From Spiroplasma gladiatoris (lineage in GTDB: Bacteria; Bacillota_I; Bacilli_A; Mycoplasmatales; Mycoplasmataceae): DNA of 64,000 bases. Location of the stretch: positions 248,001 through 312,000 of the forward strand of contig NZ_CP038013.1 of the NCBI RefSeq assembly GCF_004379335.1. The letters are read 5' to 3'. This document shows, piece after piece, positions 46,893 through 53,815 of the stretch. Numbering within the stretch: the first letter of the stretch is position 1; each line of letters starts with the position of its first letter. The notes under the pieces are model-generated. The model worked only from the letters and a program-made list of their open reading frames with translations. It was not told the DNA's origin and made no database searches. The position numbers and the translations under genes are program-made.

Positions 46893-46923
46893 GTTGGTTA
46901 TTTAAAAACCAACTTATTTTTTT
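46886..46923. terminator. Bidirectional intrinsic terminator
   Basis: Exact 14-bp arms (46886-46899 and 46907-46920) with T runs on both sides, between converging genes. Confidence 0.88.
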
Positions 46924-47216
46924 CTATTATAAGCATAAGCTCCACCAATCAATACTTTTGCATTATAACCTTTTTGTCTCAAAAATTCAGCAGACTCACC
47001 ACTACGATTACCAGCATTACATACTGTAACAATTAATCTAGATTTATCTTGACCTACAATTTTTTCATAATTTGATATTAATAAACTTATTTCATAGTTA
47101 ATAGAATTTGGTACTTTTGGTAATGATTTATATTCATAATCTGTTCTAACATCAATTATTAAAATATTAGGATCATTTTCTATTAATCTAAACTCTTCAA
47201 CACTTATTCCTTGCAT
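46914..47216 (-). CDS. Rhodanese-domain protein
   Basis: The product has 100 residues when started at ATG 47216, which has TTTGGTGAT upstream. A longer GTG start at 47240 would overlap a TATAAT box. Single rhodanese domain: LIIDVRTDYEYKSLPKVPNS and the active-site loop VTVCNAGNRSGESAEFLRQKGY with Cys. Such proteins carry sulfur as persulfide or act in tRNA thiolation or stress; the partner is unknown. Confidence 0.85.
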   Translation of the reverse strand: MQGISVEEFRLIENDPNILIIDVRTDYEYKSLPKVPNSINYEISLLISNYEKIVGQDKSRLIVTVCNAGNRSGESAEFLRQKGYNAKVLIGGAYAYNRKK

Positions 47217-47357
47217 ATTATCACCAAATTTATTATACACTTGACATTATAGATAAAGATAGTATTAGATACTTCTATAAAATATTAATTTGAGTTTAAA
47301 AATAATTTAGTTATTGTGTTATTTTTCCATTTTTTATCTTATAATCAAATAGACTAA

Positions 47358-47436: not shown

Positions 47437-49155
47437 ATGGCAGATATTAAGTTTATGGCCCTTGGAGGTCAAGATGAAAGAGGAAAAAACGCCTTTATAG
47501 TAAGTGTAGACAATGATTTATTTGTATTTGATGCGGGAATAAAATTTCCTGAACGTAGTATTTTAGGAATTGATGTAATTATTCCAAGTTTTGAGTACTT
47601 AATTGCAAATGCAAAAAGAATTAAAGGAATATTTTTATCAAATCCAAGTAGTAATAATGCTGGAGCAATTAGTTATATTTTAAGAGGAATTGATGTTCCG
47701 GTTTATTGTAATGAACTTACATCAACATTATTAAAATATCGTAATTTAAAATATCGAATAAAAAATCGTGAAAACAATTTTAAAATTGTTAATGATAAAG
47801 ATATTATTGAGTTTGGAAAAAACAGTGTAGAAATTTTTAGAACTACATCTAGTTTTCCTGAAACTTTTGGATTCGCCTTACATACTGAAGATGGAACAAT
47901 TGTTTATGCTGGAGATTATATAATTGATGGAAATGAACAATCATGATTTTCAACTGATATGAACCATCTTTCAACAATTGCTGAAAAAAATGTTTTAGCA
48001 CTACTTAGTGATTCAGAATATGCTTCAAGAATTGGATATACTGTTCCAAATCACAGAATAGACAAATATATATCTGCTCCAATGAAAGATTTTAAAAGAA
48101 GACTTGTATTAGGTTTATTTGAAGAAGATGTTTTTAAATTGTTTGAAATTATTAAACAAGCTAAAGAACAAGGAAGAAAAATGGCTATTTATGGTAAAAC
48201 AATTTCAAAAATTGTAGAATCAAAAATAATTCAAGACTCATTAAAAATATCAAAACAAGACATTATTTCTTTAGAAGAATATATGAAATCAACAGATGGT
48301 ATTTTAGTTTTAACTGGAGCAGGTGATTTATTATACTCACGTCTTGCAAAAATAGCTGCAGGAAACGATGAAGTAGTAGAATTTTCTGAACAAGATACAA
48401 TAATTCTAGCAACACCTCCAGCTGCTGGAGTTGAAAAAAGACATGCCGAAATTTTAGATGAACTTGCTAGAACAAATGCAAATTTAATTGCTTTAAGTGA
48501 TAAAAATATATGAGCAATGAGAGCAAGTTATGAAGACATTAAATTGATGACAAGAATTATGAAACCAAAAAGTTTTATACCAATTAAAGGGTTGTATAAA
48601 GAATTTTTAAGTGCAGAAAGAGCAGCTTTAGAAGCTGGAGTTAAAAAAGAAAATATTCAATTAATTAATAATGGTCAAGTTTTAAAAATTGCAAAAGATG
48701 GTAAATTAACAATTGCTTCTGAAATGATTAAAACAAGTGATGTTTATGTTGATGGAATTGGAGTTGGAGATATTGGTGCTGTTGTTTTAAACGAAAGAAA
48801 ACAACTAGCAACAGATGGTGTTGTAAGTATTGGTGCAAATATTGATGAAAAAACCAAAGAATTAGCTTCATTAATTGATATTCAAATGAGAGGTGTTATT
48901 TACATTCAAGAAGATAACCCAATCTTTAAACTTATGCAAAAGCAAATTATTAATATATTAGAAAAACATAAAACTGAATTAAAAACTAATAATATTGCTT
49001 TTGATCTAAATAACATTAAAAAAGAAATAGTTTCAAAAATTAGAAGTTCAATTAAACAAGAAACCGGAAAACAACCAATTGTTTTAGTTGTAATTAATGA
49101 AATTAATATAAATAGTTTTTATGAACCAAGAAGAAACAATAATAAAAACAATTAA
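47437..49155 (+). CDS. RNase J paralogue lacking metal-binding residues (pseudoenzyme)
   Basis: The product has 572 residues, collinear with RNase J: N-terminal beta-lactamase fold (VFDAGIKFPERSILGIDVII), beta-CASP domain and C-terminal domain. The HxHxDH motif reads NPSSNN (69-74), the next His site reads SSFPETFGFALH without the first His, the beta-CASP SGH loop reads IWAMRAS, and the VHG motif reads IKG (Lys384). GDY keeps an Asp. It should therefore be inactive as a nuclease. It may partner an active RNase J elsewhere. AGGAG Shine-Dalgarno. Confidence 0.88.
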
Positions 49156-49231: not shown

Positions 49232-50706
49232 TTGTTAATTGTAAGCGATTATGTCACAATAAACAAATATTTTAATATATGCTTCTTGTATCTCTTCATT
49301 TCTTATTAAAGAAGTATCAATTACTATATTTTTATGGACTTTCCATTTTTGATGGTTTAATAGACTCTAGTTCTTCTTTTTTAATTGTATATTTATTACC
49401 GTGAAGTCTATGGTCATCTATTTCTATTAAGTTATATACATCATTACCAATTGAATAATAATATTTATTATCTTGAGTTTTCATAACCATAATTTTTGTT
49501 TTAGGTTTTAAATACAGCGGTTCATATCCTGAACAAACAAACCATTTTTTATTCTCATAATTAATACTTGAACCTTTATTGACGTTTCTTGTGGTTCTAT
49601 ATAAAAAAAACAATATTTGGATTTTCTGAAAATTTTCTTACAACTGATTTACAATTATCAATGGAAGTTGAATATTTTTATTATATTCTTTGATCAATGT
49701 AGGTAAATAAGCATTCAACTTTTCAATTGTTTTAATATTTTTAATTCGAATTCTTTGAGGTCATATTCTTTGAAGGGTACCAAAAGTTCTCTCAACCAAA
49801 ACTTTTTCTTGTGGTATAGAGGTAGTTTTTGTTGATACTTTTAAAGAATGAAAAATAAATTGCAATTAAGAACGAGACTCTGAATACCCTTCAGAGTCTC
49901 TATTTATTTTAGAGCTAAATACATTTCGATTGTCAGTTACATTCTTAATAGGAATGCCATAATTTACAAATGTTTCTTTATAAACACGATAATAACTCTC
50001 TGTTGTTTCTTGCTCGCTAAAATGTCCTGCTAAAATTCTTTTTGTTGACTTATCAATTACAATGTGTAAATGACTTTTTACTCCCTTAATCCACTCGTGA
50101 TTTGAAGCATCTGCTTCAAAAATTGCCCCAAAGTTTGTTTCTCTTTTTTGGGTTGGGTGAGGGTGTTTTAATAATGGAATTTTATTTTTAATTATAACTA
50201 ATGGGTCTAAATCATTGTTTAATCGCTTTGTTCTTAATCTAATTTCTTTTTTGGTTTTTCTATGCACACTAAAAACTAACTCATTATTTTCTTTCATTAT
50301 ATTTCTTAATGAAGAATAGCTTATTTTATCTTTTCAACAATTTTCTCAATAATCTAACATACTAAAATCATAATATTTTAATTTATAAAGACTAATTATT
50401 TTTTCTTTAATATCATGATCTATTTTATTTCTTGGGATTTTCCCAGTGTTTTTATGAATAAAAGCTTTTGGTCCAATTTTTTTATACTCTTTTAACTTTC
50501 TATATGTGTGTCTTTTTGATCAACCAAGAGTTTCTGCGCTTGTGTTTATGTCGTGTATTTTATTAGATAAACCTTTTAAACTCTAATTTAATTTGTTTCA
50601 TTATGTCTAATTCAATTCCTCTCATAATTTTGCCTCCAAGTATATTGTACTTGTGACATAATCGCTTGTTAATTTTTTGTGACATAATCGCTTGTTATCC
50701 ATATAT
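49232..50706 (-). mobile_element. IS1202-like (ISNCY group) element, copy 3
   Basis: A ~1.47-kb element bounded by inverted ends AAGCGATTATGTCACAA (left, 49243-49259) and TTGTGACATAATCGCTT (right). The right end is present twice, at 50651 and 50678. Direct repeats of 25 bases flank it. It carries one transposase gene on the minus strand, broken by several mutations. It is the best-preserved of three copies in the window and the reference for reading the others. Confidence 0.85.
49332..50625 (-). pseudogene. Transposase of IS copy 3, inactivated
   Basis: The start ATG at 50625 follows TTGGAGGC. A frameshift occurs after ~18 codons (near 50583). The central part (49866-50297) holds the DDE core: FGAIFEADASNHEWIKGVKS and NVTDNRNVF. 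An in-frame TAA at 49866-49868 precedes TTSIPQEKVLVERTFGTLQ with the final Glu. Further frameshifts occur near 49670 and at a T8 run near 49605, before the C-terminal piece at 49332. All three catalytic acids are recognisable, but the gene is dead. It uses both TGG and TGA for Trp. Confidence 0.85.
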
Positions 50707-50812: not shown

Positions 50813-53800
50813 ATGGATGATTATGGGCGTAATCATAGCACTTTTGATGGCGGAAACGACAGAACACGTGCTTTAGATATTCAAAGAAAACAAAGAAGAC
50901 CAGATTCAATATCATGAATTATATCTGCTTTACTATTATTTTTTCTAAATGTTATTGCTTTAGGAAGAATAACTGTAGTAGGTCAATTACTAGATGATAT
51001 AGTTTTTACTTTTTTGTTTGGTTGATTTAAATATTTCTTGTATTTGTTATTTTTTATTATTGATTTTGCAATTTATTTTGGAATTAAATTTAAACCTAAA
51101 AAAAGATTTTTAGCAATGATATTTGTTACTTGAATAATGTTTTGTTGACTAATTTCTACAATTTTATTTATCGTTGCATACAATATTGATTCAACTGATT
51201 TTGTTGTACATGATATTTGAAGTAAATCAATATTTACTGATTCAATTAAATCTTATATAGAACAATGAACTGCACACTCATTTTTTGGTTCAACAAAAAA
51301 CTTGCTTGTATCAAGTAAAGATAGTTATTTTACAACGTTTGCAGGTGGAGGAATGATAGGAGCATTTCTTGCAGGAATATCAAGTTATTTATCAATATAT
51401 GGTGGATTAGCTTTAACTTTATTTTTATTTTTTATTAATATGATATGAATTTTTACTGGTGATCCTTTTTATTTGTTCAAATCAAAAAGTAAAAGAAAAG
51501 GTAAAAGATTAAGAATTTTATCTTTAAAAAGTAAAGAAGCCAAAAAAAATATAAATAAAATAAATAAAAAAAGTAAAATAAATAGTATTTTTAATGTAAT
51601 TAATTTAGATAATGATAGAACACTTGACGAAAGAGAAATACTTGCTTCTGTTAAAGAATCTGATATGACAATCGAATTACCAAGTTATGTTAAAAATAGT
51701 GATAATTATATTTATCGAAATGTCGATAAAAACTTTTACAATGATGAATACATTCCACATTCAGAACCAGTGTATGATCCAATTTATGATATTGAGTTTG
51801 AAAATGATTATATAAATAATCAATCAAAAGGATATTTGCCAGTTCAAGAACAACAATTTTATTATAATCAACCTAATACAATGCAAAATCAAAACATGTT
51901 AAACCTAAGAAATGAATTTGATAATAATATGTACAATAACAATTACATAAATAATAATCAACCTTTTGACATTAATAGTGAAAATGTAATATTACCAAAA
52001 AGAAAAAATTCTTTTTTAAATGAGGTTAAAGTTGATAATCCAATTCAAGAAGCGAGAGAAGATAATCGAAAAGAATTAGAAAAACAAACTAGTATAACTC
52101 CTCACGGTTTTAACGGAAGAACTCAAGAATTTTTAAGCTTAAAAAATAACTTAGATCAAAACAGTGATGAAAAACATGTTCAAAGTACACTTGATCAATT
52201 TTTAATTAACAAAAATGAGGCATTAAATAAAAATATTATCAAAAAAGATAATGATAATTATATTTCTCCAATGGAAAGTATTGCAAGAGCCACTTTTTTA
52301 GAAGATGCTACTTATTCAAGACATAATGATTTTTCAAACACAATTGAATTAAATAGCAATAAGGCAATTGAAAAAAATCAATATGTAAATACAAACTATC
52401 AGTTACCATCAATCGATCTTCTAAATGAAGATTTAAGTGGACCCCAACAATACGAAAAATTAAACAGACAAGCAGAATTAAAAGAACAAGCTATTAATAA
52501 TACCTTTAAACAATTTGGAGTAGATGCAAAAGTCGTAAACAAAAACGTTGGACCTAGTGTTACTAAGTTTGAAGTTCAATCTGGTTTAAAAACAAAAGTA
52601 AATAGTATAACTAGTTTAGAAAATGACTTAAAATTATGTCTTGCAAGTCAAAATATAAGAATGGAAGCACCAATTCACGGAAAAGCATTAGTTGGAATCG
52701 AAGCTCCTAATGACAGTTTAGTTTCTGTTCCATTAAGAAGTGTTATAGAAAATGTACCTTTAACTAAAATGAATTCAAAATTATTATTCGCAATTGGAAA
52801 AACTGTTTCTGGTGAATTACTTTTTGGAGAGTTAGATAAAGCGCCACACTTACTGGTTGCTGGTTCAACTGGTTCAGGTAAATCTGTTATGATAAATGGA
52901 ATTATTACATCAATTTTATTAAGAGCAAAACCTCATGAAGTAAAATTTTTAATGATAGATCCAAAAAAAGTAGAATTATCAATTTATTCATCAATTCCTC
53001 ACTTACTAGCACCCGTTATAAGTGATATGAGCCTTGCAAATAATGCTTTAAAAAAAGTTATTAACGAAATGGAAAGAAGATATGCATTAATGCAGTCAAC
53101 TTCAACTAAAAATATTGAAGGATATAATGCATTGATTAAAGATCCAACTAAAAAACTGCCATTTTATGTAGTTATAATTGATGAATTAGCAGATTTAATG
53201 ATGACAGCTAATAGAAAAGAAGTAGAAGATTCAATAAAAAGAATTACTCAAATGGCAAGAGCTGCAGGAATTCATTTAATAGTAGCAACTCAAAGACCTT
53301 CAACCGATGTATTAACAGGTGTTATTAAATCAAATATTGTAACAAGAATAAGTTTTGCTGTTGCTAGTTCAATAGATTCAAGAACTATTTTAGATTCAAC
53401 TGGTGCTGAAAAATTAATTGGAAAAGGAGATTTATTATATCATCCTCCAAACGCTAATGTTTTAACAAGAGCACAGGGTTCGTTTATAAGTGACGAAGAA
53501 ATTATGAAATTAGTTGATTTTTGTTCGAGTCAACAAAAACAAATCTTTGAAGAAGAATTTATTAGAGTTGAAAATGATACTATAGATGGAAATTATAGTT
53601 CTGGTCAAAAAGATTCTTTATTTGAAGAAATTAAAAACTATGTAATTCAAGAAAAAAAAGCATCTACGAGTTTAATTCAAAGAAAATTTTCAATCGGTTA
53701 TAACCGAGCTGCTAAAATTATTGATGAACTTGAAGAAAGTGGAATAATAGGACCTGCTAATGGTTCAAAACCAAGAGAAGTTTTTGTAAAAAACGAAGAG

Positions 53801-53815
53801 TTTTTTAGTTATTAG
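50813..53815 (+). CDS. ftsK: DNA translocase FtsK/SpoIIIE
   Basis: The product has 1000 residues. About four N-terminal transmembrane helices (residues 25-220) anchor it. A long polar linker (230-540) rich in Asn and Gln follows. The motor domain has FGVDAKVVNKNVGPSVTKFE, Walker A VAGSTGSGKSVMINGI, Walker B VVIIDELADLMM and RITQMARAAGIHLIVATQRPS. The C-terminal gamma DNA-reading domain ends SIGYNRAAKIIDELEESG. It pumps chromosome DNA at division. Reading TGA as Trp extends the start to 50813. Confidence 0.95.

Follow-up and report, generated by a model that had tools for sequence, protein, structure and literature searches.

The window analyzed here comprises 64,000 nucleotides of the Spiroplasma gladiatoris contig NZ_CP038013.1 (positions 248,001 to 312,000, forward strand). 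An ORF is located on its plus strand at 47437-49155, starting with the ATG at 47437 and closed by a stop codon ending at 49155, and encodes 572 amino acids under genetic code 4. The frame is intact under this code, with two TGA codons translated as tryptophan. A ribosome-binding site (AGGAG) lies about 10 bases upstream of the gene, which has a G + C content of 26.8% and a GC3 of 8.6%. An uninterrupted frame of 572 residues had been noted before from the letters of the window alone (hereafter the sequence-only reading), and was confirmed at exactly these positions.

The product was recognized by the RNase J family model TIGR00649 of NCBIfam with 410 bits (cut-off 400) and has the three-part architecture of this family, including the RNase J-specific beta-CASP and C-terminal domains. 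The beta-CASP domain (PF22505, RNase_J_b_CASP; 50 bits, cut-off 27) covers residues 220-343 (48094-48465, plus strand). The C-terminal domain (PF17770, RNase_J_C; 63.8 bits, cut-off 23.8), which influences oligomerisation in characterised RNase J (PMC7864078), covers residues 450-556 (48784-49104, plus strand). The best solved relative is the RNase J2 of S. epidermidis (E-value 1.6e-92). Using the Pfam and TIGR00649 matches and this nearest structure, the feature was annotated as an rnjB orthologue encoding an RNase J2 that is a predicted pseudoenzyme.

Downstream of the gene and on the same strand, ftsK/spoIIIE is located at 50813-53815 (Pfam FtsK alpha, SpoIIIE and gamma). The same arrangement was found at 23 Mycoplasmatales and 67 outgroup loci, and this conserved neighbour marks the locus as rnjB; in B. 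subtilis, rnjB is known to have this neighbourhood as well (rnjB-spoIIIE). A broken IS transposase lies between rnjB and ftsK in the window (49332-50694, minus strand), with a weak match to the rve integrase core and coding stretches in several frames. In most genomes of the genus, ftsK starts about 70-190 bases past rnjB. On the other side, a small rhodanese-domain protein is encoded on the opposite strand (46914-47240, minus strand), flanked by rnjB and the NAD kinase gene, an arrangement common to most same-genus genomes.

In the tree computed from all columns, the 73 J2 proteins of the Mycoplasmatales form one clade with a support of 1.0. After removal of the active-site columns (IQ-TREE, LG+C20), the clade persists with an SH-aLRT value of 100; it groups with J2 of the Erysipelotrichales type at 99 and is separated from J1 at 100, although the position of L054, L062 and L063, which have the longest branches, is unsure. 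A set of 15 J2-diagnostic residues was defined from positions that are conserved among the J2 proteins of the order as well as among those beyond it, though not in J1. The S. gladiatoris protein carries all 15 and the second RNase J of the same genome, its J1, none, while 13 were found in an outgroup J2 (L083) and only 6 in the J2 of S. epidermidis. Judged by the tree, the diagnostic residues and the ftsK synteny, the gene is an orthologue of RNase J2 (rnjB).

Active-site residues and the intact RNase J1

In the alignment with 72 J1 proteins from inside and outside the order, all of which keep seven of seven metal ligands, the J1 ligands H74, H76, D78, H79, H144, D166 and H390 correspond to N69, S71, N73, N74, S138, D160 and K384 of the S. 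gladiatoris J2. The HxHxDH motif is replaced by N69-PSSN-N74 (47641-47658, plus strand). At the position of the third-motif histidine stands S138 (47848-47850, plus strand); this position is occupied by S, A, T, G or C in 72 of the 73 orthologues and by histidine in one. The last ligand histidine is replaced by K384 (48586-48588, plus strand), and lysine is already found there in most Erysipelotrichales J2. The sole ligand residue kept is D160 of the fourth motif (47914-47916, plus strand), the equivalent of which is present in 63 of the 73 orthologues.

The 5'-phosphate loop is degenerate, too. The J1 core HTSGH, with its loop residues H364, S366 and H368, is represented by I358-W-A360-M-R362, and the whole stretch I358-S364 (IWAMRAS; 48508-48528, plus strand) stands in place of HTSGHAS. 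The sequence-only reading had described NPSSNN at residues 69-74, AMRAS instead of the SGH loop and Lys384 instead of the histidine of the VHG motif, and all three replacements were recovered in the alignment. Its broader statement that every metal-binding His motif is replaced holds for the histidines, all of which are gone, but not for the aspartate of the fourth motif, which is kept as D160. With one of seven ligands, the protein lacks the canonical RNase J metal set (HxHxDH plus H, D and H), on which nuclease activity in the family depends. As judged by its residues, the S. gladiatoris J2 is a member of the RNase J family by descent and not a canonical RNase J enzyme.

The sequence-only reading had left to a genome search whether a second RNase J with an intact HxHxDH is encoded elsewhere. 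The assembly (1,164,642 bases, one contig) was searched, and such a gene was found at 963894-965576 (L064) with all ligands present (HGHEDH, NHS, GDY, SGH and MHGE). A complementary loss, in which J1 has lost what J2 keeps, was considered for J1 and J2 and dropped: only 8 of 170 columns show such a pattern, which is too few, and most of them do so partially.

Motif decay alone is no proof of inactivity, since the J2 of S. epidermidis, with a partial site, binds one metal and still cuts RNA (PMC7864078). The Mycoplasmatales J2 could accordingly still be a nuclease that holds metal through non-canonical residues, comparable to that protein (HGHEHA, one metal). Besides this precedent, the retention of D160 and the invariance of two residues of the N-terminal loop, D13 and E14, would agree with such a site. 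However, the S. epidermidis J2 has three histidines in the HxHxDH motif and one in motif 3, and here there are none. The phosphate loop is gone, and which residue has replaced a ligand depends on the lineage (N, S, K, A, D, Y). A relocated histidine site was likewise rejected: no histidine column reaches at least 90% in the J2 of the order, as opposed to eight invariant histidines in J1, and no cysteine column reaches 90% either. A nuclease with an altered site is therefore considered very unlikely.

Extent of the loss and retention of the gene

The sequence-only reading had proposed an alignment across the clade, and in this alignment the active-site loss proved to be clade-wide. The 73 orthologues from 11 GTDB families of the Mycoplasmatales keep zero to two of the seven ligands (none in 6, one in 58 and two in 9 proteins). 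The block NPSS[NSQ]N is found in all 20 same-genus genomes, and the other families are degenerate at the same place. Among the named records with the loss are Mesoplasma grammopterae, Williamsoniiplasma lucivorax, Spiroplasma phoeniceum, S. platyhelix and Spiroplasma sp. TIUS-1. The same loss in 73 orthologues rules out a single-species oddity, and a sequencing or assembly artefact or a misread motif, refuted by these independent genomes, has next to no probability.

An RNase J match was detected in all 60 relatives, of which 59 have two or more; the single-match exception is a draft of 77% completeness. In a sample of 198 genomes from the order, each of at least 90% completeness, 198 of 198 have a match to the J2 profile, among them genomes of 0.6 Mb, and 197 have two or more matches. 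By taxonomy, the family of Syn3.0 is presumably bracketed by genomes with active-site loss.

Elsewhere in the class, nearly all J2 keep three to six of the seven ligands, which points to a stepwise erosion of the site, probably finished off in the ancestor of the Mycoplasmatales before the order diversified. The pattern in the J2 of the Erysipelotrichales and other class members is HxHxDV/A/Q, T[HQ]S, [SG][ED]F and VKGEY; in the Erysipelotrichales proteins, the first motif reads HxHxDV, the third has H or Q, and D is exchanged for E and H for K. For the S. epidermidis J2, the ligand positions read HHHAHE..Q. In J2 of other class families (L098-L111), the last ligand histidine is replaced, mostly by isoleucine, and the phosphate loop is altered, but many of these proteins have an intact HxHxDH (HHDHHD..I). 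By their residues, these proteins are an intermediate stage of J2 erosion.

The ligand positions have lost more than random divergence would explain. Among 50 J2 proteins of the Mycoplasmatales, the J1 residue is present in 14% of the cells of the seven ligand columns vs. 53% for the 53 other J1-invariant columns, and random draws of seven columns were as low with P = 0.003. Outside the order, the ligand columns (55%) are close to the comparison columns (59%; P = 0.40). Two J2 proteins of uncultured Bacilli (L188 and L190) have KGKDN and KGKKN in place of HxHxDH, a loss that is apparently separate from that of the Mycoplasmatales.

For closely related pairs, dN/dS is mostly 0.03-0.12 for J2 and 0.02-0.07 for J1, approximate values as dS is often near 1. 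By these ratios, the J2 gene is under purifying selection. Loss of the catalytic residues in a gene still under purifying selection, as found here, is the combination expected of a pseudoenzyme kept as a partner. On one topology, the tree length is 22.0 for J2 and 13.2 for J1, and given this roughly 1.7-fold faster evolution some relaxation is present in J2. Synonymous divergence at residues 431-470 is low between the two closest genomes; an overlapping element in this region was rejected, as synonymous-codon identity is flat there across the genus.

The faster evolution and the selective loss of the active-site columns are what would be expected of a decaying relic that is on its way out and kept for now. 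Against this stand the low dN/dS values, the intact frames, the J2-profile match in every one of the 198 genomes mentioned above and the presence of RnjB in Syn3.0 (PMC4993169). A relic or pseudogene was rejected on the dN/dS values and the universal retention, and is regarded as highly improbable.

Predicted fold and proposed role

The AlphaFold model of the S. gladiatoris J2, predicted as a single chain like all models used here, has a pLDDT of 85.4. It superimposes on the S. epidermidis J2 (6k6w) with a Z-score of 48.2 and an rmsd of 2.0 over 432 residues, and on bacterial RNase J structures in general with Z-scores of 42-48. It aligns over the full length to the B. subtilis J1 (3zq4) and to PDB entry 9a5v, the title of which describes an integrative RNJ2-RNJ1 model from crosslinking. 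The prediction for a distant member of the clade (L046; pLDDT 82.3) has the same order of fold elements.

In S. aureus, deletion of J2 harms growth and 5'-exonucleolysis, while its active-site mutant H76A/H78A is without phenotype, and mutation of the J1 active site is equivalent to deletion (PMC3937233). The authors of that study proposed a structural role for J2 (PMC3937233). Association of J1 and J2 has been described for B. subtilis, S. mutans and, weakly, S. epidermidis (PMC6759994, PMC7864078), where the interaction is of low affinity (PMC7864078).

The S. aureus model predicts a protein like that of the Mycoplasmatales, which would be its outcome if a dispensable site decays. The Mycoplasmatales J2 is thus taken, with good though not full confidence, as an ancient retained pseudoenzyme that serves as a non-catalytic subunit of a J1-J2 complex, both the association and the inactivity being inferred. 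This J2 is predicted to keep the complete beta-lactamase/beta-CASP/C-terminal fold, but has lost the ligands of both catalytic metals. It would bind the active J1 of the same cell through the contact surfaces seen in dimeric and tetrameric RNase J; as the non-catalytic half, it would stabilise or position J1 and tune its activity. The sequence-only reading had suggested a structural or RNA-binding subunit. The structural part is the best-supported reading, as the gene is orthologous to J2, a protein that S. aureus requires although its active site is dispensable there (PMC3937233); the RNA-binding part is weaker given the degenerate 5'-phosphate loop.

Six positions, L299, L340, A344, L386, K388 and G442, are conserved specifically in J2 of the Mycoplasmatales and lacking in other RNase J. 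They could mark a new surface and, together with the universal retention of the gene and the predicted persistence of the RNase J fold, would suit a J2 that acts alone and independently of J1, binding RNA or regulating without catalysis, e.g., on ribosomes or on particular transcripts. Against this stand the degeneration of the phosphate loop, the net charge of J2, which is about 10 units less basic than that of J1 although the same difference is seen outside the order, and the association with J1 of those J2 proteins that have been characterised (PMC7864078, PMC6759994). A J1-independent role is hence rated as unlikely. The lower net charge as such was dropped as a sign of lost RNA binding, since the outgroup J2 show the same difference.

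A possibility more far-reaching than such a subunit role is put forward tentatively and with less than even confidence. The main 5'-to-3' exonuclease of the Mycoplasmatales may be an obligate heteromer of J1 and a dead J2 that was fixed in the common ancestor and is indispensable even in near-minimal genomes, and the dead subunit may have gained surfaces specific to the order, with which it takes over part of the lost degradosome scaffold.

Comparison with known systems

The partnership of J1 and J2 is already known from Bacillus and Staphylococcus. The RnjB of these genera resembles the S. gladiatoris protein in its J2 lineage, its three-domain fold, the intact J1 partner and a weakened site, which in staphylococci reads HGHEHA, E166 and Q392 and is dispensable in S. 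aureus (PMC3937233, PMC7864078). In contrast to the Mycoplasmatales J2, the staphylococcal protein has two leading histidines and a third-motif histidine, one Mn and nuclease activity in vitro, whereas the Mycoplasmatales proteins have no histidine ligand and a degenerate phosphate loop throughout the order. This order-wide loss offers natural support for the structural J2 function proposed from S. aureus and bears on the active sites of other J2 paralogues, a question left open in PMC7864078.

The J2 of the Erysipelotrichales and others of the class are the nearest lineage in the trees and share the ftsK-linked locus; those of the Erysipelotrichales also have the lysine at the last ligand and lack the histidine ending HxHxDH. 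Unlike the Mycoplasmatales J2, they have both leading histidines of this motif and usually three to six of the seven ligands.

The mycoplasma members of MG423/TIGR00649 and the RnjB of JCVI-Syn3.0 (MMSYN1_0257) belong to the same order and are, by name, the same gene. They are annotated as RNase J or J2. Two publications treat J2 as a possible nuclease or leave the question open, and their available parts do not mention active-site loss (PMC4014445, PMC4993169). J1 and J2 are reported in all Mollicutes, among very few such ribonucleases, and discussed as exonucleases "if this also applies" (PMC4014445), and RnjB in the minimal cell Syn3.0 is called unexpected (PMC4993169). In the available parts of PMC6609329 and PMC10090944, no RNase J passage was found. 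A search confined to the open-access literature yielded no statement on active-site loss in Mollicutes J2. With the site erased across the order, the question of why a minimal cell has two RNase Js becomes testable, as the second would be a partner and not an enzyme.

In eukaryotes, CPSF100 and INTS9 are inactive beta-CASP paralogues paired with the active CPSF73 and INTS11. The J1-J2 pair of the Mycoplasmatales would work like CPSF73-CPSF100 and INTS11-INTS9, although these belong to a different lineage; the split of J1 and J2 is bacterial and involves no 3'-end processing.
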